Shown in pieces: positions 43,801 through 62,684 of a stretch of 64,000 bases of DNA. Numbering within the stretch: position 1 is the stretch's first letter; each line of letters starts with the position of its first letter. The notes beneath the pieces are model-generated. The model ran no database searches and was not told where the DNA came from. It saw only the letters and a program-made list of their open reading frames with translations. The stretch is from contig LBCK01000002.1 of NCBI GenBank assembly GCA_000980705.1, forward strand, positions 496,001 to 560,000. Reading direction: 5' to 3'. The translations under genes were made by a program, and so were the position numbers. The stretch is from Ruminococcus sp. UNK.MGS-30 (GTDB taxonomy: Bacteria > Bacillota > Clostridia > Oscillospirales > Ruminococcaceae).

Positions 43801-46800
43801 CTGCTGCACAGTCTCCCTCCATGCGGAGGGAGTGGATTGAAATTCCACATTGATAACTCCTTACATACCTCTGCGGCGTCTCCCTCCATGCGGAGGGAGT
43901 GGATTGAAATGCTCAAAAGCTAGCACAAGCGAGAAAAGATGCCGGAGTCTCCCTCCATGCGGAGGGAGTGGATTGAAATTTGGTTGAGGGGAATGGTGGC
44001 ACAACCGTTTCTGTCTCCCTCCATGCGGAGGGAGTGGATTGAAATGATATTGTCGCTGCAGTCGGTTCCGACGAAATCGGTCTCCCTCCATGCGGAGGGA
44101 GTGGATTGAAATGGGACTGGTTCCTATGCAGCGAACGGTGACGGCAGGTCTCCCTCCATGCGGAGGGAGTGGATTGAAATCCCAGAGTCTCCGGATATAG
44201 CACATCCGGTGATAGTCTCCCTCCATGCGGAGGGAGTGGATTGAAATTCGCTGCCGCAACGTTTCCGCATACTGCATAGCGGTCTCCCTCCATGCGGAGG
44301 GAGTGGATTGAAATCCCCTCATGCGGCGGTAGGTACGATGCCGCCGCAGGTCTCCCTCCATGCGGAGGGAGTGGATTGAAATAACGCCGTTGACAGTTCT
44401 TCTCAAGCGTCATTCTTGTCTCCCTCCATGCGGAGGGAGTGGATTGAAATCCAAAATATCAGCTCCTCTCTATTATAGTATATCAGTCTCCCTCCATGCG
44501 GAGGGAGTGGATTGAAATAAAAGCGCTGTAGCCAAAGCCCACACGCATGACAATGTCTCCCTCCATGCGGAGGGAGTGGATTGAAATGTCTTGGAACAAG
44601 CAGACAGCGGCTAATACTTGGCGTCTCCCTCCATGCGGAGGGAGTGGATTGAAATGACTCTCTCTTGCAGGGTGTCGGCTGGTCTTCTGTCTCCCTCCAT
44701 GCGGAGGGAGTGGATTGAAATACAGCGGTTTTCCGCTTACTGCGACTGATACGACGTCTCCCTCCATGCGGAGGGAGTGGATTGAAATGTCCGGTCTCCG
44801 TCTGGACATCCAGTCAGAGGATGTCTCCCTCCATGCGGAGGGAGTGGATTGAAATGGGCTGGTGAGTGTCTCGCTATAGTGGTTGGTCTGTCTCCCTCCA
44901 TGCGGAGGGAGTGGATTGAAATATTCTGTCGTCTGTACCTCCGTGGTTGTGTCGGGGTCTCCCTCCATGCGGAGGGAGTGGATTGAAATGATTTTGTTTT
45001 GTATCCTCAGCATCCGGTATATGTCTCCCTCCATGCGGAGGGAGTGGATTGAAATGATTTTGTTTTGTATCCTCAGCATCCGGTATATGTCTCCCTCCAT
45101 GCGGAGGGAGTGGATTGAAATATGAATTTGTGAATTAGATAATTTCCCACTGCGGTCTCCCTCCATGCGGAGGGAGTGGATTGAAATGCATGGGGCGGCG
45201 CACATGGGGCGCTATTGAAATGTCTCCCTCCATGCGGAGGGAGTGGATTGAAATGCAGAGCCTATGAAACTATCTCCCAATCTCATATGTCTCCCTCCAT
45301 GCGGAGGGAGTGGATTGAAATATCAACTACAATGCCGCTCATTGCAGCATTGGTAGTGGTCTCCCTCCATGCGGAGGGAGTGGATTGAAATCCCGTCCGG
45401 ACATCGGACCGTTGCGAGACTATGAAGTCTCCCTCCATGCGGAGGGAGTGGATTGAAATAGGCCCTTATCTGATTCTCGGAAATGGTACATCCGTCTCCC
45501 TCCATGCGGAGGGAGTGGATTGAAATGTTTCTTGTACTGTCCGGAGCGGATTGCAAGCTGGGTCTCCCTCCATGCGGAGGGAGTGGATTGAAATCCAACC
45601 GTCTGATACACGCCGTCGGAAACGAGTCGTCTCCCTCCATGCGGAGGGAGTGGATTGAAATTGCTACACCTCGCTGCACATGAAGTGTTAAAGCTGTCTC
45701 CCTCCATGCGGAGGGAGTGGATTGAAATATGCAGACACCCCCAAATACCACCGGACGAATACGTCTCCCTCCATGCGGAGGGAGTGGATTGAAATTTAGA
45801 GCAATACCTTATTGCAGAAGGTGTGGCAAGTCTCCCTCCATGCGGAGGGAGTGGATTGAAATTGATAACTGAGTGGGGCGATAAAATGCAATATTGGGTC
45901 TCCCTCCATGCGGAGGGAGTGGATTGAAATTCTTCTTCCTCCAAATCATCCCCAAATAGATCAGAGTCTCCCTCCATGCGGAGGGAGTGGATTGAAATGT
46001 TCTGCGATTGGACAAGCTGAAATTGTCACTAGTCTCCCTCCATGCGGAGGGAGTGGATTGAAATCTCTTGTCAAGAAATTCAAAAAGGGCTAATTAGGTC
46101 TCCCTCCATGCGGAGGGAGTGGATTGAAATTATCTACATTCTACGGAGGGAAAAATCATGAAAGTCTCCCTCCATGCGGAGGGAGTGGATTGAAATAACT
46201 CGTCTGCCTTCTTATACGTAGCACTTTCAAAGTCTCCCTCCATGCGGAGGGAGTGGATTGAAATATGGTCAGTCACAAAAAAATACACCTACTTTCAACG
46301 TCTCCCTCCATGCGGAGGGAGTGGATTGAAATTCCGAATGGATCTGGGAAGATGCAGACCGTCGGGGTCTCCCTCCATGCGGAGGGAGTGGATTGAAATC
46401 CAATGCGGCACTGGTATACCGGGAGAACCCCGACCGTCTCCCTCCATGCGGAGGGAGTGGATTGAAATACAGTCAATGCAGACGGCACAGCCAATGAAGT
46501 GGTCTCCCTCCATGCGGAGGGAGTGGATTGAAATTCTATTCCGCATTGCCCAGACACCGCAGGCTATCCGTCTCCCTCCATGCGGAGGGAGTGGATTGAA
46601 ATACAGTGAATGCAGACGGGACAATCACACACGTTGTCTCCCTCCATGCGGAGGGAGTGGATTGAAATGTCGTGCAACATGGGTTCTGCGGTGTCCGGCG
46701 ACGAGTCTCCCTCCATGCGGAGGGAGTGGATTGAAATACTCCCTAGATCAGCCCCCGGAAGAGAGAATACAAGTCTCCCTCCATGCGGAGGGAGTGGATT

Positions 46801-48290
46801 GAAATATGCAATGTACTTATTTTGACAAGACTTCCTGCAGTCTCCCTCCATGCGGAGGGAGTGGATTGAAATGTGCTGATGATCCAGACTGGTACGAAGC
46901 CGGAAAGTCTCCCTCCATGCGGAGGGAGTGGATTGAAATGCCCATTTTGGATTTAAGATTTCGTCAAATCTGATGTCTCCCTCCATGCGGAGGGAGTGGA
47001 TTGAAATGTGTGCTTGTGTGCCTATCTTAGATACACAAGCGGTCTCCCTCCATGCGGAGGGAGTGGATTGAAATGGTGTGTATCACCAGTTCTCCGTGTA
47101 TTGTCATAGTCTCCCTCCATGCGGAGGGAGTGGATTGAAATTGTACTTTTACCGAAAACTCCTCCGGCACACCGCGTCTCCCTCCATGCGGAGGGAGTGG
47201 ATTGAAATTCGCCACAGCACGGGTATAGGCACTGTCTGCGGCTCGTCTCCCTCCATGCGGAGGGAGTGGATTGAAATACTTTGCGGCATTTTTCTGTGCT
47301 TCTACCGCAGCGTCTCCCTCCATGCGGAGGGAGTGGATTGAAATTCTATTCCGCATTGCCCAGACACCGCAGGCTATCCGTCTCCCTCCATGCGGAGGGA
47401 GTGGATTGAAATGATAATTCCAAGGTGTGGTTTATGTTTGATGCGATTGTCTCCCTCCATACGGAGGGAGTGGATTGAAATACCGGATCGGAAAAAATGC
47501 TGCGGCTTGGCGGTCGGTCTCCCTCCATACGGAGGGAGTGGATTGAAATGTTTTTCGCCGGTCAAAATGAACGCTTTCCGCAACGTCTCCCTCCATACGG
47601 AGGGAGTGGATTGAAATGGACTGAACGTCGAAATGCAAAAAGGTGATGTCGTCTCCCTCCATACGGAGGGAGTGGATTGAAATGTTCAGATCGACGTTTC
47701 CAGAAATGCCGTATACCGTCTCCCTCCATACGGAGGGAGTGGATTGAAATTCGCCAGGTGTGGATTTGCGGTAGAGATTATACAAGTCTCCCTCCATACG
47801 GAGGGAGTGGATTGAAATCCGTTTTCGGTGTCTTGGTATCCGTGTTGGTTTCGTCTCCCTCCATGCGGAGGGAGTGGATTGAAATTTTTCTGTTGCCCCC
47901 CACAGGGGCGCCGGGGGACGTCTCCCTCCATGCGGAGGGAGTGGATTGAAATCACACCCGGCAGCACAAACAAGGACGTGACGGACGGTCTCCCTCCGTG
48001 TGGAGGGAGTGGATTGAAATATCGAAGTTATGCTTACTGAACTCGATTATGCAGTCTCCCTCCATGCGGAGGGAGTGGATTGAAATAGGAGACAAACGGC
48101 GTTCAGACCGGTGCCGGCGTGAGTCTCCCTCCATGCGGAGGGAGTGGATTGAAATGCTCCGTCACGCAGTGCCTGTTCCTGCATCTCGAGTCTCCCTCTA
48201 TGCGGAGGGAGTGGATTGAAATACTGTTAACCCGGACGGCAGCGTGACACACGTCGAGTCTCCCTCCGTATGGAGGGAATAAATTGAAAT
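37826..48290 (+). CRISPR. type I-C CRISPR array, 156 repeats and 155 spacers
   Basis: The 33-bp repeat begins GTCTCCCTCCAT and ends GTGGATTGAAAT; its 8-pair stem CTCCCTCC / GGAGGGAG closes a four-base loop. Spacers are 32-37 bp. I located every repeat start by eye, from 37826 to 48258. Position 13 of the repeat is A in repeats 1-26, G in 27-143, A in 144-149, and G again from 150; the last five include decayed copies (47988, 48190, 48258). Exact duplicates: spacers 36/47, 37/48, 57/60, 58/61, 107/108, 130/142. Orientation is set by the leader and the decayed far end. Size and full cas set argue for an active or recently active locus. Confidence 0.97.
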
Positions 48291-48610
48291 TTCAAATAGT
48301 CCGCATAGATCGGATTCCGGCAACCCTGCTGCGCCACAAACTTGTCCAGCTTGGCACTGTACTCCATCTGCTGCATCTGATTCTGTGCAGCCTCGTACTT
48401 CTTCTGCCAGTCGGCAGCGGACTGCTTGATGCCGTCAATATCCATTTCGGTGTACGACTGGATTTTGCTGTTCGCATCGTTCAGCTGCCCTGTGACAGCA
48501 TCCAACTTTGCCTGCAGTGCGTTGTAGTCCTCTTCGCTGTAGGTCTTTGCCTGCGGCTCCGGCGCCTGCTCCTGCTGCTGTGTCGGCTCGTTTTTGGTTT
48601 CGTCTTCCAT
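48291..48610 (-). pseudogene. truncated phage scaffold-like gene abutting the array end
   Basis: The minus-strand frame starting MEDETKNEPTQQQEQAPEP has its own AAAGGAATG ribosome-binding site, is rich in Gln/Glu and coiled-coil forming (YNALQAKLDAVTGQLNDANSK), and ends with YSAKLDKFVAQQGCRNPIYADYLKFQF, as in phage scaffolding or DUF4355/GP20-like minor structural proteins. After about 107 residues it runs into the last, degenerate repeat and continues only as translated repeat. It is therefore a 5' remnant whose 3' part was lost where the array now ends. Confidence 0.7.
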
Positions 48611-48891: not shown

Positions 48892-49049
48892 CGTTTTGGT
48901 GTTTAATTTTTGAGGGCAGCGTTTTACCGGCGTTTGAAAAGTGTTTGAAAGTGTTCAAAACGGCGGAAATACGCTGCTTTTTTGCTTTTGTGGTTTTGAA
49001 CAGTTCGTTTTAGAAAAAACAAGCATCTTTAATCAAAAAATATTTTTAA

Positions 49050-51736: not shown

Positions 51737-51990
51737 AGGTAATCGAAGATGTGCAAGACAAGTACGGCAACTACTGCATCATTTTCAAAAGCACGAATCT
51801 CAGGCTGATCTACGACTGGCTGCACACGCACTACAGCGGAAACGGATTTAAGTTTGCAATCGTAATTGACCTGAGTATCGACTGCGACTATGAAACACCA
51901 ACGGAAACGGTAGTCTACTTCTTAGATGCGATCACAGAAGAAGTGCTGGACTATGCCGGATTCAAGCTTGCAAATACAGATGAAACATAA
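51733..51990 (+). CDS. hypothetical prophage protein (85 aa)
   Basis: Starts at GTG 51733 behind GGAGG and reads MKVIEDVQDKYGNYCIIFKSTNLRLIYDWLHTHYSG. It is mixed alpha/beta and acidic toward the end (IDLSIDCDYETPTE). Expression is coupled to the previous gene by overlap. No family recognised. Confidence 0.6.
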   Translation: MKVIEDVQDKYGNYCIIFKSTNLRLIYDWLHTHYSGNGFKFAIVIDLSIDCDYETPTETVVYFLDAITEEVLDYAGFKLANTDET

Positions 51991-52072
51991 AAGCCGAAAC
52001 AGCGGCAGAGAGCCGCTGTCTGCCGGAACTGGTCTACCGGCACTGATGATGGCAGACCGGAAAGGAGGAGCT

Positions 52073-54076
52073 ATGGACTACTTATCAGTAGAAGAAGCAG
52101 CAGTCTTGAAAAACTGTTCTGCAAGGTATATCCGAAAACAATGTAAAAACGGTGTTTTACCGGCGGTTATCCAAGAACATCCGCAGAACCATAAACCCTG
52201 TTATCAGATCCCGGTCTCCGCATTTCCGGAGCCGTTGCAGGCGAGATACTATCAGCAAAAGCGGCAGGAAATGGGCGTGATGCCCACGCCCATTCCGGCG
52301 GAAACGAAACCACAGAAGCCGAAGAAGAAGGCAAAAGCCGTGCGGCAAATGACCATTGAGGACTGCACCGAAGCACAGCGGCAGGAGCTACAGGTATGGA
52401 CAGAGATCCTGCGAGAGTGGCAAGCCGGACGAAAGGGGTACGCCAAAAAGACCGACTATGACAAGCTGTATGTGGGCAAGTGTCAGCTGGAACACCCTGA
52501 CCTACAGATCTCCACGGGGATCCTGTACCGAAAATGGAAGGCATATCTGGAACATGATCTCGCCGGAATGCTGGGGATCCGAGGGGGCAGCAACAAAGGC
52601 AGCAGCGAGATCCCACAGCTGGTGTGGGAGGCGTTTCTGTGGTTCTGGCTGAGCGAGAACCAGCCCACTGTCTGTGCCAGCTATCGCAACACCATCACAT
52701 GGACAGAGGACTTTCATCCGGAGCTGGTGGCTTGTATCCCATCAGAGCGAAGCTTTCGGCGGCGGATCGACCGAGATGTGGCAGAGGCAACCAAAATTCT
52801 GATGCGTGAGGGCGAAAAGGCGTTTTCTGACCGCTGTATGCCGTACATCATGCGAATGTACGACCAGCTGGAGCCGAACGATGTCTGGATCGCCGACAAC
52901 CACACACTGGATATTCAGTCACTGGACGAAAACGGCACCATTCACCGCCTGTATCTGACCGCATTTCTGGATGCGAAGTCCGGTGTCATTACCGGCTGGA
53001 ACGTGACGGAATCGCCGGATTCCCAGTCCACCATTCTGGCACTTCGGCACGGCATTCTGCGGTTCGGCATTCCGAAAGCGGTGTACTTCGACAACGGTCG
53101 GGAATTTCTCACCCACGATGTGGGCGGAAAAGGACACCGCACCCGAAAATCTGACCAGAACCGACCGGAGCCGCCTACCATTTTGCAGCGGCTGGGCATT
53201 GAAATGCACAACGCCATTGTGCGGAATGCAAAAGCAAAGCCCATCGAGAGAACGTTCTACACGGTCAAGAGCCAGTTTTCCAAATCGTTCAGCGGATTTT
53301 GCGGCGGCACGATCTTAGAGCGTCCGGAAAGTCTGAAACGGCGGATCAAGAACAAAAAGCTCCCCCAGGACTATGAAGTCCGCAGTTATCTGAATGACTG
53401 GATCGACGGCGAGTACAATCTGGAGGAGTACGGCGGTTCTGAGGCAAAGTACCGGGGTATGAGCCGTCTGGATGTCTGGAACGGAGCGATCCGTTCGGTT
53501 CGCAAAGCGGCGGAGGCGGAGCTGAATCTGATGCTGATGCGTTCCACCAGAACCCAGAAGATCAAGCGGAACGGTGTGTATATCACCTTTGCCGGCGAAA
53601 AGATCTGGTACATGAAACCGGAAGAAACTATTCTGCGTCTGGGCGAAGAAGTCTATGTGCGGTATGATCCGGCAGATCTGAAAACCGTCCGGCTGTACAA
53701 CACGAAAGACCAGTATTTGTTTACCTGGGAACTGGCAGACGCACTGATGCTGGATTATCTGACCTCTGATAAGGTGGAAATCGCCAATGCAGAGCAGACG
53801 ATCCGCCACACCAGAACGTTTGTACGGAATCAAGCCAAGGGTATCACGGCTGATCTGACCAATGCACAGCGGATCGACTATCTGGACGCTACGATCCGGA
53901 GAGCCGGAGAGGCAAGGAAGAAACATTTCCAGATCAGAATGCCCAAGACGATCGAACCGGTGCGAGCCGGAGAACCGCTGGAGGAAAACCACATGGTTTC
54001 CGGCAGCGAATTTCTCCCCGTGTCCATTGATCTGAAGAAAATGCAGAAAAATGCGAAAAAGCGAAAGGAAGAATAA
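52073..54076 (+). CDS. MuA-like DDE transposase
   Basis: Integrates and replicates the phage by transposition. The 667-residue protein has an N-terminal MuA-type winged-helix segment (MDYLSVEEAAVLKNCSARYIRKQCKNG), a central RNase H-like core with catalytic residues in WIADNHTLDI (Asp near 274), AVYFDNGREF (Asp near 339) and AKPIERTF (Glu near 392), and a C-terminal MuB-contact domain. AAGGAGGAG sets the ATG at 52073, about 50 codons inside the longest open frame. MuB follows 3 bp later. Confidence 0.93.
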   Translation: MDYLSVEEAAVLKNCSARYIRKQCKNGVLPAVIQEHPQNHKPCYQIPVSAFPEPLQARYYQQKRQEMGVMPTPIPAETKPQKPKKKAKAVRQMTIEDCTEAQRQELQVWTEILREWQAGRKGYAKKTDYDKLYVGKCQLEHPDLQISTGILYRKWKAYLEHDLAGMLGIRGGSNKGSSEIPQLVWEAFLWFWLSENQPTVCASYRNTITWTEDFHPELVACIPSERSFRRRIDRDVAEATKILMREGEKAFSDRCMPYIMRMYDQLEPNDVWIADNHTLDIQSLDENGTIHRLYLTAFLDAKSGVITGWNVTESPDSQSTILALRHGILRFGIPKAVYFDNGREFLTHDVGGKGHRTRKSDQNRPEPPTILQRLGIEMHNAIVRNAKAKPIERTFYTVKSQFSKSFSGFCGGTILERPESLKRRIKNKKLPQDYEVRSYLNDWIDGEYNLEEYGGSEAKYRGMSRLDVWNGAIRSVRKAAEAELNLMLMRSTRTQKIKRNGVYITFAGEKIWYMKPEETILRLGEEVYVRYDPADLKTVRLYNTKDQYLFTWELADALMLDYLTSDKVEIANAEQTIRHTRTFVRNQAKGITADLTNAQRIDYLDATIRRAGEARKKHFQIRMPKTIEPVRAGEPLEENHMVSGSEFLPVSIDLKKMQKNAKKRKEE

Positions 54077-56813: not shown

Positions 56814-57290
56814 ATGGCGAAAGGACAAACCCAGACACTGTACAGCCTTGCTGCTGTGCTGGGGCTGGTAGAATCAGGAAACAAGGAAGACCCGTTTCAC
56901 ATGATCGTCTACCGTATCAGCGGCAAGACCTCTGTCCGGGAACTCACCCCACCGGAGGCAGCGGCGGTGGAAGCAGAGCTGCGGCGGCAGCTCCGGGAGC
57001 AGCGTCCCAAAAAGAAAGCGGCATCACCGGAGTATCCGGGAAAAATGACAGCCGGACAAAAGGCATATGCCTGGCGGCTGCTGTACGATCTGGCAAAGCT
57101 CTCGCCCTCTGCGGTGCCGGTGGGCGAACGCATGGCAGGCATCGTCCGAAAGGTATTGCAGGAAGACCCCTGCCCCGGTCATCCGCTGAACTGGGTCAAA
57201 CGGGAGGACGGAGCGAAACTGATCGAGGCACTGAAACGGTATCTGCGAAACGCAAAGCGAAAGGCGGCGAAAGCACATGACTCTGGATAA
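56814..57290 (+). CDS. Mu Gp16-like (GemA family) regulator
   Basis: A 158-residue protein with KMTAGQKAYAWRLLYDLAKLSP and the C-terminal KVLQEDPCPGHPLNWVKREDGAKLIEALKRYLRN seen in the Mu Gp16 (GemA, DUF1018) family, implicated in host gene modulation. The overlapping order GemA-Mor is the same as in Mu-like phages. Start taken as ATG 56814; GTG 56805 is an alternative. Confidence 0.82.
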   Translation: MAKGQTQTLYSLAAVLGLVESGNKEDPFHMIVYRISGKTSVRELTPPEAAAVEAELRRQLREQRPKKKAASPEYPGKMTAGQKAYAWRLLYDLAKLSPSAVPVGERMAGIVRKVLQEDPCPGHPLNWVKREDGAKLIEALKRYLRNAKRKAAKAHDSG

Positions 57291-57573
57291 ACTGACCATG
57301 GAACAGCTGCACGGCAGTCAGCTGGAAATTGCGGAGGTCATCGGCATCGAGGCATACCGGAAGCTGGTCGCCAGCTACGGCGGCAGCAGCATCTATATCA
57401 GCAAGGCGGATTCTGTGATGAATGGTCTGAGAGATGCGGAGATCTTCCGCCGGTTTGACGGTTCCAATTATCTGGAACTGGCACACGCATTCAATCTGGC
57501 GGAGAACACCATCCGGGACATCATCTACCGCCAGAGCACCGACCGGGAAGCACACCAGATGACGTTCTTCTGA
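57277..57573 (+). CDS. Mor-family middle-operon transcription activator
   Basis: A 98-residue protein with IAEVIGIEAYRKLVASYGGSSIYISKAD (dimerisation half) and FDGSNYLELAHAFNLAENTIRDIIYRQ (helix-turn-helix), the Mor/C family of Mu. In Mu it turns on the middle promoter. It overlaps the GemA-like gene by 14 bp. A terminator follows at once, so its target promoter must lie after or within this region. Confidence 0.9.
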   Translation: MTLDKLTMEQLHGSQLEIAEVIGIEAYRKLVASYGGSSIYISKADSVMNGLRDAEIFRRFDGSNYLELAHAFNLAENTIRDIIYRQSTDREAHQMTFF

Positions 57574-57633: not shown

Positions 57634-57675
57634 GTGCTATCATTACAGTAGAAGTAATGATAGCACTTTTCTTTT
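57634..57675 (+). terminator. strong terminator after mor, directly before the next operon
   Basis: Perfect 13-pair stem GTGCTATCATTAC / GTAATGATAGCAC with TTTTCTTTT. It ends about 15 bp before the start of the next gene, leaving no room for a promoter between them; expression of that gene needs readthrough. Confidence 0.9.
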
Positions 57676-57690
57676 GGGGAGGGAGATACA

Positions 57691-58002
57691 GTGACACAGG
57701 AACTGATCCTGTTTATCATCACCACGGTGATCACCGTGATCCTTGGGATCATCGGCTATTTTCTGAAACGCACCATGGATCGCAATGACAAGAACGAAAT
57801 GGCAGTGCAGGAGCTGCGTGACAATCTGCTGACGCTGTCGGACAAGTACGCCACCAAGGCAGAGATCCGGGAGATCAAGGCATCTATGGAAAAATTGTCG
57901 GAGAACATCGACTACATCAAGGAACACACCACCAAGAACGAGGATTTTATCCGCACCATGGCAAGGCTGGAAAGCAAGATCGACAGCTATTGCAGCAAGT
58001 AA
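57691..58002 (+). CDS. membrane-anchored coiled-coil phage protein (DUF2730-like)
   Basis: A 103-residue protein: one N-terminal membrane segment (LILFIITTVITVILGIIGYFL) and a coiled coil. Mu-like phages have a DUF2730 protein of this build (Gp25) in the same place. GGGAGGGAG precedes a GTG start. Confidence 0.7.
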   Translation: MTQELILFIITTVITVILGIIGYFLKRTMDRNDKNEMAVQELRDNLLTLSDKYATKAEIREIKASMEKLSENIDYIKEHTTKNEDFIRTMARLESKIDSYCSK

Positions 58003-58014
58003 GGAGGAACGGCA

Positions 58015-58344
58015 TTGGAGCAGGCAGAAATGATAGAGCGAATCCGGCAGAAGGCATTTTTCAAGAATAACGGCATGGTGCTGAAAGCCGTGAATCTGCT
58101 GCGTGACAAGTTTGTTGCATTGACGGACATCCGCTATGCACTGGAACCCAGCATGACTGAGGCGGAATTCCGGGACAGCATCAACTATCTGACGGAATCC
58201 GGATATATCCGGCTGCGGCACATGGATTCCAAGGCGTGTACGACACTGGCAGACACGGCAATGGAGCAGCTGGAAGCCAAGGTATCGGCGGACGGTATCA
58301 AGATCATTGCCTGTGTCCGCAAGGACGAATGTATTGACGTGTGA
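58015..58344 (+). CDS. Mu Gp26-like phage protein (109 aa)
   Basis: A soluble protein with a winged-helix look (IRQKAFFKNNGMVLKAVNLLRDKFVALTDIRYALE ... LTESGYIRLRHMD). AAGGAGG precedes a TTG start. It is placed between DUF2730- and DUF3486-type genes as in Mu, where Gp26 stands. Function unknown. Confidence 0.65.
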   Translation: MEQAEMIERIRQKAFFKNNGMVLKAVNLLRDKFVALTDIRYALEPSMTEAEFRDSINYLTESGYIRLRHMDSKACTTLADTAMEQLEAKVSADGIKIIACVRKDECIDV

Positions 58345-58352
58345 GGTGCTGC

Positions 58353-58898
58353 ATGGGACGCAGAAAGCATTCTAAGATCGACAATCTGGAACCGGCAGTC
58401 AAAGAGACCGTAGACGAGATGATCAAGACCGGTGCCTATTACCGGGAGATCGTGGACTATATCCAGTCCCACGGCGTGAGCATCTCTCTGGCAGCGGTGG
58501 GAAAATATGCGAAAAATCTCATGAGTACGCTGGACGCACTGCGGCTCAGTCAGGAAAACTTCCGGGCGATTATGGAAGAAACCGACCGCTATCCGGATCT
58601 GGACATGACAGACGGCATTCTCCGCCTGCTCTGCAATCAGATGCTGGATGCCATCAACAAGCTGCCGGAGGAACGGCTGTCGGAGATCGACTTTGACACC
58701 CTATCCAAAAATGCCGTGGCACTCACCCGTGCAGTGGCGTACAAGAAGAACGTGGACACCAAGACACGGGATCTGCTGGAAAACGGTGCAGAGCAGTTCA
58801 AGGATCTGATCTATGAAGCCATGGCAGCAGAACGACCGGATCTCTACAAGGAAGTCAAAAAATTCGTAAAATCGAAAACCAAGGAGGGAAAGGCATGA
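58353..58898 (+). CDS. Mu Gp27-like (DUF3486) protein, possible small terminase
   Basis: A 181-residue protein starting MGRRKHSKIDNLEPAVKETVDEMIKTGAYYREIVDYIQSHGVSISLAAVGKYAKNL, the DUF3486 signature with its helix-turn-helix, followed by a long helical part. In Mu this family (Gp27) is thought to help packaging. GAGGTG precedes ATG 58353; GTG 58341 is possible. It overlaps the NusG-like gene by 4 bp. Confidence 0.82.
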   Translation: MGRRKHSKIDNLEPAVKETVDEMIKTGAYYREIVDYIQSHGVSISLAAVGKYAKNLMSTLDALRLSQENFRAIMEETDRYPDLDMTDGILRLLCNQMLDAINKLPEERLSEIDFDTLSKNAVALTRAVAYKKNVDTKTRDLLENGAEQFKDLIYEAMAAERPDLYKEVKKFVKSKTKEGKA

Positions 58899-59386
58899 GT
58901 ATGTATGTGGTGCAGGTAAAGCCCGGCACAGATCTGCAAGTGGCTGTGCTGCTGCGGAAAAACGGGCATCTGGTACGCTGTCCGCAGCGAACCATGGACA
59001 TCCGGAAGAACGGGAAATGGAACAGTATCACAGAACCTGTCTTTCCCGGCTATCTGTTTCTGGAGGAAGAAATCGACCGGCAGAAGTATGACAGCGTGGT
59101 ACAGTCAGACGGCGTGATCGGATTTCTGAAAGTGTCCGGCTGTACGCTGGGCAAGCTGCAGCCCCACGAGGAAGCATATATCCGGTGGCTCTGGAACGGC
59201 GGCAAACCCATTGCCCCGTCCCGCATCTATACCACATTGCAGGGGGACAAGATGGTCTTGTCCGGCGTGCTCCGGGAGTATTGGAACAATGTGGTGCGGC
59301 TGGATCTCCGGCAGCGGCGTGCCCGTGTGCGGCTCTCCATCTGCGGACATGACTACACGGTCACACTGCCGGTAATCGGCATTTAA
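58895..59386 (+). CDS. phage-encoded NusG-like transcription elongation factor
   Basis: A 163-residue protein with the two NusG-family parts: an NGN domain (MYVVQVKPGTDLQVAVLLRKNG ... EPVFPGYLFLEEEIDRQKYDSVVQSDGVIGFLKVSG) and a C-terminal KOW-like barrel (LQGDKMVLSGVLREYWNNVVRLDLRQRRARVRLSI). The PGYLF and GVIGFL motifs are those that contact RNA polymerase in NusG, RfaH and LoaP. It is inserted between the packaging genes, overlaps DUF3486, and is followed by a 324-bp leader holding a hairpin and a terminator. It is probably a specialised paralogue that lets polymerase read into the late operon. Confidence 0.88.
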   Translation: MSMYVVQVKPGTDLQVAVLLRKNGHLVRCPQRTMDIRKNGKWNSITEPVFPGYLFLEEEIDRQKYDSVVQSDGVIGFLKVSGCTLGKLQPHEEAYIRWLWNGGKPIAPSRIYTTLQGDKMVLSGVLREYWNNVVRLDLRQRRARVRLSICGHDYTVTLPVIGI

Positions 59387-59710
59387 GAGCGTGTGTGAAA
59401 CAAATCAGTATGCCTGTCGCTGCTGTGGTTGATTCGTCCCACAGGGTTCGGTATATGGTATAAAGGCAATACTTCTTGCAGCTCTTTGTGCGGTATTGCC
59501 TGAACCCCGAACGGAACTTTTCCAAAAAGATTCCGAATGGCGAAGCATACCCTGTTTAAGAACGTTCAGAGGGCGTTTAGAATCGTTTGAAGATTTTTCT
59601 GCGAAAAATAACACCCAAAAAGAATACACACAATATACGGGCGTACAGCGTCCGTATTTTTTTGACCATTTTTTCTGAGTTGACCATTTTTCTGAAAGGA
59701 GTGACTGCAA
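59387..59710 (+). promoter_or_regulatory. structured non-coding leader of the packaging/head operon
   Basis: No gene. It holds a perfect 9-pair stem AGGCAATAC / GTATTGCCT (59464-59501) with a long loop, and an intrinsic terminator near its end. TTGATT (59428) 17 bp before TATATG could be a promoter. This is the arrangement expected of a target leader for a NusG-type antiterminator. Confidence 0.6.
59635..59663 (+). terminator. intrinsic terminator before the terminase genes
   Basis: Stem ATACGG-GCG / CGT-CCGTAT with small loop, then seven T. It stands about 50 bp before the start codon of the next gene. Confidence 0.8.
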
Positions 59711-60052
59711 ATGAACAGCCGAAAGAAAAAGAGCATCCACCAGCTGGCAGACGGTATCCTGCAATTTGAGGACAAGCGGAAATCCATTCCGCAAGCCGAC
59801 TTTACCGATTTGCAGACGTTCCTCTCTGCCTACCTGAATACCCCGGAGCCGAAGAAACGGAAAAAGCTGGCGGAGGAATTCCGGAAGCGGCACATGGAGT
59901 TATACGAGTTCCTGCAAAGCAATCCGGAGTTGATCCGGGCAGAAACCAAGATCACCGCCACCCTACAGGCGGCGGCATCCGGAGCAGCCGAAGAAGACGA
60001 CAACGGACAGATCACCAATCTGTTTGAGAAATTGCAGGAGGGACTGGCATGA
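59711..60052 (+). CDS. hypothetical protein upstream of the large terminase (113 aa)
   Basis: A helical, charged protein (MNSRKKKSIHQLADGILQFEDKRKSIPQADFTDLQTFLSAYLN) with AAAGGAG upstream. It overlaps the terminase start by 4 bp. The place would suit a small terminase or packaging partner, but I see no diagnostic motif. Confidence 0.65.
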   Translation: MNSRKKKSIHQLADGILQFEDKRKSIPQADFTDLQTFLSAYLNTPEPKKRKKLAEEFRKRHMELYEFLQSNPELIRAETKITATLQAAASGAAEEDDNGQITNLFEKLQEGLA

Positions 60053-61344
60053 TCTATCAACCTTTTTCCCCCAAGCAGATACAAGCCATGCTCTGGTGGG
60101 CAATGCCGAAATTCCGGCAGTATGATGCTATCATCTGTGACGGCTCTGTCCGTTCCGGCAAGACCATGGCAATGAGCATCGGCTATCTGCTGTGGAGTAT
60201 GCGGAGCTTTGACCATGAGACATTTGCCTTTTGCGGCAAGACCATCGACAGCCTGAAACGCAATGTGGTCACGCCGATCCAGAAGTGGATGGCTGGTGTG
60301 ATGCAGCCGAAGATCAACCTGTCCAAGAACTATATGGACGTGGAATGGCAGGGACATCACAACCGCTATTATTTTTTCGGCGGCAAAGACGAAAGCAGCT
60401 ATGCTCTCATTCAGGGTATCACCCTTGCCGGTGTCCTGCTGGACGAGGTGGCACTGATGCCCCGTTCTTTTGTGGATCAGGCAACGGCGAGATGCTCTGT
60501 CACCGGTTCTAAGATCTGGATGAACTGCAACCCGGACGGCAGCGAGGAACACTGGCTGTACAAGGAATGGATCGACAGCGTACACGGGAAAGCCGGCGAA
60601 AAGAACCGGCTGCACCTGCATTTCACCATGGAGGACAACCGTGCTCTCTCTGTATCTGTCCGGAAACGGTACGAGCGGATGTATTCCGGTGTGTTCTATG
60701 ACCGGTATGTACTGGGCAAGTGGGTCATGGCGGACGGTCTGGTGTATCCGCAGTTCCAGAAGCTGCGGCACGTCATTCCGGACACGGTGCCGGATGTGCA
60801 TTCCGGCGAGTTCTATCTCAGCTGTGACTACGGCACCCTGAACCCGACCTCTGTCGGCTTATGGCACCTGTCCGGAGATGGCTATGCCACCCGAATCCGG
60901 GAGTACTATTATGATGCCCGAAAAGAGGGACATTCCCGAACGGACGAGGAACACTACGCTGCACTGGAACAGCTTGCCGGAGATATTGCCCCCTATGTGC
61001 GGTATGTGATCGTAGACCCGTCTGCCGCCAGCTTTATTGAATGTATCCGGCGGCACGGGGTATTTCGGGTGCGGAAAGCCAACAACAGCGTTCTGGACGG
61101 CATCTGTGACACGTCCACGCTGCTGCAAGCCGGACGCATTCACATCTGTGAAGGCTGTACGGATATTATCCGGGAATTCGGGCTGTACTGCTGGGACAAT
61201 CAAGCCAAAGGGAAAGATGCTGTGGTCAAGACCAACGACCACGCCATGGACGATATGCGGTATTTCGTCCGGACGGCGATGCAGCGGACGCTGCGGGAAT
61301 ACCGGATGCCGCCGGCAGATGACAACGAGGAGGTGATGCCATGA
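60049..61344 (+). CDS. large terminase subunit (PBSX/XtmB type)
   Basis: ATP-driven motor and nuclease that packages phage DNA. The 431-residue protein starts with FSPKQIQAMLWWAMPKFRQYDAIICDGSVRSGKTMAMSIG (adenine motif and Walker A), has Walker B in GVLLDEVALMP, the coupling motif MNCNPDG, and an RNase H nuclease with FYLSCDYGTLNPTS, YVIVDPSAASF and TNDHAMDDMRYFV. This is the PBSX family, not the Mu Gp28 type. Confidence 0.93.
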   Translation: MIYQPFSPKQIQAMLWWAMPKFRQYDAIICDGSVRSGKTMAMSIGYLLWSMRSFDHETFAFCGKTIDSLKRNVVTPIQKWMAGVMQPKINLSKNYMDVEWQGHHNRYYFFGGKDESSYALIQGITLAGVLLDEVALMPRSFVDQATARCSVTGSKIWMNCNPDGSEEHWLYKEWIDSVHGKAGEKNRLHLHFTMEDNRALSVSVRKRYERMYSGVFYDRYVLGKWVMADGLVYPQFQKLRHVIPDTVPDVHSGEFYLSCDYGTLNPTSVGLWHLSGDGYATRIREYYYDARKEGHSRTDEEHYAALEQLAGDIAPYVRYVIVDPSAASFIECIRRHGVFRVRKANNSVLDGICDTSTLLQAGRIHICEGCTDIIREFGLYCWDNQAKGKDAVVKTNDHAMDDMRYFVRTAMQRTLREYRMPPADDNEEVMP

Positions 61345-62684
61345 TCGATGCAACCCAGATCGCCGCAGCCATGCAGGTGCCCTGCCTGCTCAGCGGCGAC
61401 ATGATACAGCAGATGCAGCTGTGGGAGGAATTATATCTGAACCGTGCCGGCTGGATCCGGAACCGCATCCGTTCCTGTCACATTCCGGCGAATATCGCAC
61501 AGGAGCTGAAACGGCTGACACTGACGGAATTTTCCGCCACGGTACACGATGCGGCAGAACTGGAACAGGCGGTCAGCCGTGTGCTGCCGAAGCTGCGGCG
61601 GAAAATGGACTTCGGGCTTGCCATTGGCGGCTTGCTGCTGAAACCCTATTTCACGGCACAGGGCGTTTCGGTGGACATTGTGCCGCAGAACGCCTATCTT
61701 CCGGTGAACTACACGGACGATTCCTGTGATGCGGTGGTGTGTCCGGAGGAAATTTCCATCGGCAGGGACTATTTCACCCGTCTAGAGCTGCACGTCTATT
61801 CCCGGTTGCGGCAGACACACACCATTCAGAACCGCTGCTTCCGGTCTGCCAGTCCGGGATCACTGGGCACAGAGTGCAGTCTGGATGCAGTGCCGCAGTG
61901 GGCGGATGTATTGCCGGAAAAGGTGTATGAAAACGTACAGCGTCCGCTGTTTGCCATTTTTCAGACACCGGATTCCAACAACATCGACCCCACTTCACCG
62001 CTGGGCGTTTCGGTCTTTGCCGATGCCGTGGACTTTATCCGGGATGCGGATGAGCACTGGGAACGAATCCTGTGGGAACTGGAATCGTCCGAACGTGCCA
62101 TTGATGCCACCGAGGATCTGTTCCGGTACAAGGACGGCAAGCCGGTACTGCCCAAGGGCAGAGAGCGGATGTTCCGCAGCTATGAGAAAACGGACGGGCA
62201 GTCCTTTATCAATACCTTTTCTCCGGAAGTCCGGGACACTGCCTATTTCCATGCGTTCAATCAGATTTTGCGGCGGATCGAAAATGCGGTGGGGCTTTCC
62301 TACGGCACACTTTCCGAAGTATCCGATGTGGAGAAAACCGCAGAGGAAGTGCGAAGTTCCAAGCAGCGGAGCTTTTCCCGTGTAAAAGACATTCAAGAAA
62401 ATCTGCGGAACGCACTGGAGCAGATGCTCTATGGGATTCAGTTCTATCAGGATTACTACTGCAGTCAGAACAGTCCACCGGTCAAGGCAACCTTTAACTT
62501 CGGGGACGGTGTGCTGGAAGATCCGGACGTGGAGTATCAGCGGCGTGTGCAGATGGTACGGGACAAGCTATTGCGTCCGGAGCTGTTTCTGGCGTGGTAT
62601 TTCGACTGCTCCGAGGAAAAGGCAGCACAGATGATGCCGGAGCGACAGGATGACGGCGGTTTATTTTCCGGTGGTGAGATCTGA
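61341..62684 (+). CDS. phage portal protein (A118/SPP1-like)
   Basis: A 447-residue protein that forms the portal ring at the head vertex. Marks include GLAIGGLLLKPYFTAQGVSVDIVPQNAYLPVNY, a central SPLGVSVFADAVDFIRDADEHWERILWELE and SDVEKTAEEVRSSKQRSFSRVKDIQENL near the C-terminal stem, as in portals of A118-like Listeria phages. It overlaps both neighbours and so is coupled to terminase and minor capsid. Confidence 0.88.
   Translation: MIDATQIAAAMQVPCLLSGDMIQQMQLWEELYLNRAGWIRNRIRSCHIPANIAQELKRLTLTEFSATVHDAAELEQAVSRVLPKLRRKMDFGLAIGGLLLKPYFTAQGVSVDIVPQNAYLPVNYTDDSCDAVVCPEEISIGRDYFTRLELHVYSRLRQTHTIQNRCFRSASPGSLGTECSLDAVPQWADVLPEKVYENVQRPLFAIFQTPDSNNIDPTSPLGVSVFADAVDFIRDADEHWERILWELESSERAIDATEDLFRYKDGKPVLPKGRERMFRSYEKTDGQSFINTFSPEVRDTAYFHAFNQILRRIENAVGLSYGTLSEVSDVEKTAEEVRSSKQRSFSRVKDIQENLRNALEQMLYGIQFYQDYYCSQNSPPVKATFNFGDGVLEDPDVEYQRRVQMVRDKLLRPELFLAWYFDCSEEKAAQMMPERQDDGGLFSGGEI

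Follow-up and report, generated by a model that had tools for sequence, protein, structure and literature searches.

A LoaP-type NusG paralogue and a RAGATH-28-like leader RNA as probable partners in late gene expression of a Mu-like prophage

LoaP, a NusG paralogue of B. velezensis, binds the dfn leader at a UNCG hairpin, and readthrough requires this hairpin (PMC12691694). In the accessible portion of that paper, the hairpin is the only loading site named, and E40, R41, and I143 (B. velezensis numbering) are given as the residues that bind RNA. NusG paralogues have a common site on the polymerase (PMC7819879, in excerpt), and rfaH-like genes occur on prophages (PMC7593976, in excerpt). On the RNA side, a 2024 paper (PMC11061315, in excerpt) states that the functions of 33 RAGATH RNAs were unknown before the RAGATH-18 result; a literature search found no published function for RAGATH-28, and Rfam gives none. 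In the literature searched, part of it accessible only in excerpt, no report was found of a phage LoaP/NusG antitermination system of this kind.

Here we describe a Mu-like prophage that, in the reading we consider likely, runs its late genes by two switches in series, first a Mor/C-type activator and then a LoaP-type protein acting at RAGATH-28. What we claim, from sequence comparison, is phage antitermination of the LoaP type at an RNA site that aligns to RAGATH-28; the system would work like LoaP, with protein and RNA each scoring below the cut-off of its family.

The window, that is, the whole 64,000-nucleotide stretch of Ruminococcus DNA that was analysed, holds the left part of the prophage. 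Its left end lies at about 48698, where homology to the copy in R. callidus ATCC 27760 (L255) begins and the flanking DNA differs; the R. callidus copy is the same phage at another insertion site. Outside this end, a long CRISPR-like repeat array (about 43861-48220) can be recognized by eye in the ORF list, and the prophage is inserted just past the adjoining ORF. A shortened minus-strand ORF beside the array (48227-48610) appears phage scaffold-like by eye. The genes and the hairpin of the late region, together with the transposase, are as follows.

51926-54076: transposase with Mu domains; an AAA ATPase comes next
57277..57573, + strand: gene for a Mor/C-type late transcriptional activator (phrog_532, 2.1e-18; phrog_836, 2.9e-16)
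57634..57675, + strand: terminator, a 13-bp hairpin followed by a T run (hairpin 57634-57666 by scan, z -5.2)
57691..58002, + strand: small late-operon gene, the first past the hairpin (phrog_462, 'lipoprotein')
58341..58898, + strand: gene for Gp27 / terminase small subunit, TerS (PF11985, 2.5e-16; phrog_426, 5.4e-31)
58895..59386, + strand: gene for a LoaP-type NusG paralogue of 163 aa, the proposed antiterminator
59711..60052, + strand: first gene past the leader, 113 aa, without a family match in Pfam or PHROG
60049..61344, + strand: gene for the terminase large subunit, TerL (TIGR01547, 2.4e-57)
61341..62684, + strand: gene for a portal-like protein (TIGR01542, 1.6e-37, below cut-off)

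This gene order is conserved, to the extent of the contigs, in nine relatives (L001-L009, which comprise two viral contigs, R. callidus as L003, and six Ruminococcus MAGs); among them, the 57691 homologue went undetected in L008. Relatives in viral contigs were confirmed with a protein alignment as the query, and a search of viral contigs with the single NusG-like protein confirmed none. A type II hammerhead ribozyme (RF02276, 49 bits) is present at 51992-52061, ahead of the point where the Mu-type transposase probably starts. It also occurs, at varying positions, in 5 of the 6 relatives scanned with Rfam (L002, L003, L004, L006, and L007), and it is absent from the sixth, L005.

An earlier note on this DNA had placed a NusG-like gene, with NGN and KOW domains, among the packaging genes of a Mu-like prophage; the gene is real and belongs to the late operon. 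The 163-residue product contains the NusG domain of Pfam (PF02357, 1.9e-9, above cut-off) and matches phrog_6386, 'transcription antiterminator' (4.5e-44); phage members of the family are thus already catalogued in PHROG. When the NusG, RfaH, and LoaP models are compared, as that note had suggested, LoaP ranks first, as it does among all NCBIfam models, though below its cut-off: NF033641 gives 5.3e-25 and 88.5 bits where 125 are needed, followed by NusG at 37.2 bits and RfaH at 32.5 bits (threshold 144.5), both also below cut-off. The LoaP cut-off is reached in none of the genomes of 7 relatives. An AlphaFold2 model (alignment A1, 17 sequences; mean pLDDT 84.6) has an NGN-like domain and a C-terminal domain made up mostly of beta strands with one short helix, consistent with a KOW-type architecture; the same domain of RfaH is alpha-helical in the free state, a contrast to be read with the proviso that prediction may miss a fold switch. 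The folds closest to the model are solved NusG-family chains, and the top PDB match is 8F5G, titled 'NusG-RNA complex', which we take to be the crystal structure of LoaP with dfn RNA.

In a tree of 57 proteins, which included just 2 NusG rows, the 32 phage proteins form one branch (99/96), while the 23 LoaP rows need two changes. At the positions aligned with the ER motif, which were assumed from the motif itself to equal E40-R41 of B. velezensis LoaP, the phage proteins keep R in 29 of 32 cases and E in 5 of 32; in the window protein, E is replaced by I. The 58895-59386 product resembles LoaP more than it does NusG or RfaH.

A leader of 324 bp separates the NusG-like gene from the gene at 59711 and contains the following features.

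59423..59546, + strand: match to RAGATH-28 over the whole model (1-85), 42.1 bits
59423..59444, + strand: UNCG hairpin, first half of the element (CUGUGG-UU-GA-UUCG-UC-CCACAG), with covariation in 32 sequences
59464..59501, + strand: 9-bp hairpin, inserted into the spacer that separates the first half from the second; stable, z -4.1 versus shuffles
59512..59546, + strand: second half of the element, a small stem CGGAA/UUCCG and then the near-invariant AUGGCGAAGC (59537-59546), from alignment A3 (29 sequences, without L003, L153, and L165)
59553..59593, + strand: four imperfect CGTTTAAA-like repeats spaced by 10-11 bp
59635..59664, + strand: intrinsic leader terminator (hairpin 59635-59657 by scan, z -4.2 versus shuffles)

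The RAGATH-28 score is just below the gathering threshold of the Rfam family (RF03052, 45.3 bits), which we attribute to the longer spacer in the window, and one relative, L007, is above it at 46.3. No non-standard pair is marked in the alignment, in which both the hairpin and the AUGGCGAAGC core are aligned, and the window holds no second copy of RAGATH-28 at E <= 0.05. The leaders have in common the UNCG hairpin, a variable spacer, the small stem, and AUGGCGRAGC; most of them also have GTTTAA repeats and a terminator.

Comparison of 32 sequences indicates that the UNCG hairpin covaries as RNA. The six outer pairs are standard in 32, 31, 31, 24, 24, and 26 sequences, respectively, and the third takes all four Watson-Crick types (GC 15, CG 11, AU 4, UA 1). 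The loop is UUCG in 22, UACG in 5, UCCG in 3, and UGCG in 2, and the inner A-U is swapped for G-C in L153 and L254; since the patterns that located the hairpins prescribe UNCG along with most of the GGTTGA core, the agreement in the loop and the inner pairs is in part built in, and the pairs from outer pair 3 onward are the evidence free of the search pattern. A second pattern was required for the hairpins of L154, L157, and L166, and two near-copies (L003 and L159) were excluded from the stem, covariation, terminator, closing-stem, and GTTTAA counts. RNAalifold, applied to a MAFFT alignment in which the spacer is poorly aligned, returns just three pairs, each with compensatory changes. The small stem of the second half outscores the mean of its shuffles at 26 of 29 loci (averages 13.9 versus 9.1), with p below 0.02 at 9 of the 29 when taken singly; the number is 29 because this run preceded the addition of L154, L157, and L166. 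A long-range stem closing the second half was considered and discarded, since its score exceeds the mean of the shuffles at just 17 of 32 loci.

Past the element, 27 of 32 leaders have a terminator-like site, versus 13.2 expected from shuffles; 20 of these sites lie at a distance of 93-114 nt and 7 at other distances, and 5 leaders have none. The terminator hairpins that had been noted at 59635 and 57634 are both found by scan and fold better than shuffles. GTTTAA or GTTTTAA occurs 55 times in the leaders, versus 1.4 expected, and is present at 24 of 32 loci with spacings that are all 9-12, 20-21, or 31 bp. These helix-phased repeats point to a further, DNA-level function; the repeat-array scan itself is unspecific, giving comparable scores elsewhere in several loci. 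A similar CGTTTAAA-like array is found at 48920-48962, about 220 bp inside the left end of the prophage.

The gene and the RNA are paired across genomes. Within 396 related genomes, a protein-alignment search (E <= 1e-12) identifies the gene in 22 genomes at 24 places, and an RF03052 search (E <= 0.001) identifies the RNA in 23 genomes at 25 places, 11 of them over gathering. RAGATH-28 is present in all 22 protein-positive genomes, and at 24 of its 25 places the RNA shares contig and strand with the gene and follows it at 23-287 nt, counts that are inflated by the common descent of one phage module. In the longer gene-RNA gaps that were read, a small ORF apparently intervenes. At the 25th place (G261) the gene is split: its tail and the RNA are on one contig and its head, after Gp27, is on another. 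RF03052 is absent from all 14 control genomes. In a class-wide draw of 245 genomes, LoaP is above cut-off in 41 and RF03052 is found in 2 (G001 and G418), neither of which is among the 41; in both, a phage-type gene lies directly upstream of the RNA. The faecal phage record MT836860 carries the gene, at 34% identity, and the same element by pattern. Together, the comparison gives the protein family, the RNA family, a strict pairing and order, covariation of the hairpin, and a usual terminator.

A control search with Gp27 finds 32 places in 27 genomes. The NusG-like gene adjoins 24 of them, one more is the split G261, and the remaining 7 (two of which are short fragments) have no protein or RF03052 match; thus, leader, RNA, and gene occur as a set or not at all. 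At four gene-less loci that were read closely, the next ORF begins 1-58 nt after Gp27 and is TerL in two and portal in one. At two gene-less loci, TerL belongs to another PHROG family, phrog_38, so these are distant loci and not close controls.

These observations bear on the alternative that the element in the leader serves packaging (as a pac/cos-like site) or autoregulation of terminase and that the NusG-like protein acts elsewhere. Such a role would suit the position of the element, which in the loci read is flanked by Gp27/TerS and TerL, as well as the GTTTAA array, which looks like a DNA-binding array and has a similar array near the prophage left end. However, the scan behind that resemblance is unspecific, the hairpin covaries as RNA and carries the type of UNCG loop that is the published LoaP target, and the Gp27 loci without the NusG-like gene, distant as they are, are also without the RNA. 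We consider a packaging or autoregulation site improbable.

Less probable again is that RAGATH-28 is an independent small RNA, or some other RNA of the phage module, that is merely co-inherited with the NusG-like gene. Rfam classes the family as gene/sRNA, and every pair comes from related phages; yet proteins that have diverged to about 25-35% local identity still come paired with the RNA, loci lacking the gene lack the RNA as well, and the terminator follows at a steady distance.

The LoaP model (E <= 0.001) finds two NusG-family genes in each of 7 host genomes, one being the phage gene and the other taken to be the housekeeping NusG. This second gene, together with the polymerase site common to NusG paralogues (PMC7819879, in excerpt), would be compatible with a protein whose main role is in trans, on transcription of the host or in competition with the host's NusG, the adjacent RNA being autoregulatory. 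We regard such a role as very unlikely: RF03052 has no copies beyond one per NusG-like gene in the 396 genomes at E <= 0.001, and a site dedicated to the protein, ahead of the structural genes, is the simpler target.

The earlier note had also supposed that the phage factor takes the place of the Mu C-protein route. This is contradicted by the ORF at 57277-57573, which matches two Mor/C-type families (phrog_532 and phrog_836) and is present in 9 of 9 relatives (L001-L009). Judging from this gene content, the factor most likely acts in series with the Mor/C-type activator rather than replacing it. We propose that 57634-57675 combines a terminator with an embedded late promoter. Within the 5' arm of the hairpin, 57635-57643 reads TGCTATCAT, an extended -10-like sequence, and a hairpin plus T run with TGNTATNNT in its 5' arm is found upstream of the late genes at 10 of 10 loci. 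RNA initiated about 7 nt past the -10 would be missing the 5' arm, so the full terminator would presumably be met only by read-through from the early operon. Such an arrangement could be a promoter that escapes its own terminator yet blocks read-through from the early operon. A Mor/C binding dyad upstream of the promoter beats shuffles at the 5% level in 0 of 10 loci (for L006, a different -10-like match was used).

A factor that recognizes the 9-bp hairpin at 59464-59501 and acts in place of the Mu C route is hardly credible, for although this hairpin is stable and lies in the right leader, a Mor/C-type gene is present here and in all nine relatives, and among the leaders read the hairpin recurs only in L003, a near-identical R. 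callidus copy, with a different insert at its position in L146. The hairpin is thus real as a structure and was set aside as a regulatory element; the part conserved among relatives is instead the UNCG hairpin at 59423-59444 with the RAGATH-28 match. What survives of the initial proposal is the control of the structural genes by a phage NusG-type factor, which gains from the pairing, the covariation, and the terminator spacing; the choice of RNA element and the replacement of C do not.

Chromosomal LoaP loci provide a further comparison. UNCG hairpins of the phage shape are found beside none of 30 such loci; UNCG loops do lie beside some of the chromosomal loaP genes, on hairpins with a different inner stem, and an Rfam scan of 15 LoaP loci gives only three weak, irrelevant matches. 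The second half of the element does occur. GGCGRAGCNNUG is present on the loaP strand, no more than 250 nt from the gene, at 8 of the 27 loci with full flanks (8 matches in 13.5 kb), against a background of 3 in 68 kb farther off and 0 in 94 kb of the opposite strand; the other 19 loci are without it. UGUUNCGGC is found 12 times on the loaP strand, of which 9 (at 9 loci) are within about 175 nt after loaP and 3 elsewhere, and 5 times on the opposite strand of all 30 loci. A stem scan flagged 7 of the 9 post-loaP sites as hairpins, two of the loci (L169 and L171) apparently being near-copies. At L183, L187, L191, and L197, the second half (GGCGAAGCUAUG or a near match) lies about 50 nt before loaP, and the 5' hairpin there is of a different, AATCGTTG..GGGTCACGTT-like form.

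These chromosomal sites support the idea that the phage element is a LoaP-type site, and their sequences suggest that its second half is more general than the phage leaders. On balance, we lean toward a wider statement, that RAGATH-28 is the loading site of an entire branch of NusG paralogues in phages, serving late genes in Mu-like phages of Clostridia, and that GGCGRAGC is a general, unnamed part of phage and chromosomal LoaP sites. Our estimate for this wider statement was lowered slightly because the second half of the element is found at only 8 of 27 chromosomal loci.

The proposed sequence of events would begin with the Mor/C-type activator, which would switch on the late promoter embedded in the terminator hairpin. 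The LoaP-type paralogue, being encoded among the first genes of the late transcript, would be made early. It would then load on the nascent RAGATH-28 (the UNCG hairpin plus the AUGGCGAAGC half) in the leader past its own gene, and the polymerase so modified would continue past the terminator of the leader into the genes for terminase and structural proteins. Gene and RNA thus probably cooperate to carry transcription past a stop signal into the virus-particle genes. That a phage NusG-type antiterminator acts at the terminase/structural leader is well supported by the comparative evidence, from which we infer binding, readthrough, the promoter, and the timing. This reading offers a function for one orphan RAGATH RNA and makes a NusG-type factor the probable controller of late genes in phages of gut Clostridia. 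It also supplies a large set of naturally varying RNA sites of the LoaP type, second conserved half included, for testing how NusG paralogues recognize RNA.

Among known systems, LoaP with its dfn/mln leaders shares several features with the prophage locus: the NusG paralogue gene adjoins its likely target, and a UNCG hairpin is followed by an intrinsic terminator, with the determinants all within the leader. In the prophage, however, the gene lies upstream of the element on the same probable transcript, and there is a second conserved half, AUGGCGAAGC, which is unnamed in the accessible portion of PMC12691694. Unlike LoaP of B. velezensis, which serves antibiotic clusters, the phage protein would serve a phage late operon; the inner stem is GA/UC, the protein scores below the LoaP cut-off, and it belongs to a separate branch of the tree. 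The leader RNA resembles RAGATH-28 in that the whole model is aligned with matching hairpin and AUGGCGAAGC core, and whereas Rfam lists no function, an antiterminator loading site is proposed here. As in Mu, a Mor/C-type gene lies directly upstream of the late genes; unlike Mu, the prophage has in addition, farther downstream, a terminator in the leader and a factor of the NusG type. Lambda Q also acts by processive antitermination of a long operon. The same holds for lambda N and RfaH (PMC7819879, in excerpt), with which the proposed system shares this principle; the prophage factor differs from lambda N in being a NusG-family protein rather than an N-like peptide, and from RfaH in that its likely loading site is an RNA hairpin rather than ops DNA.
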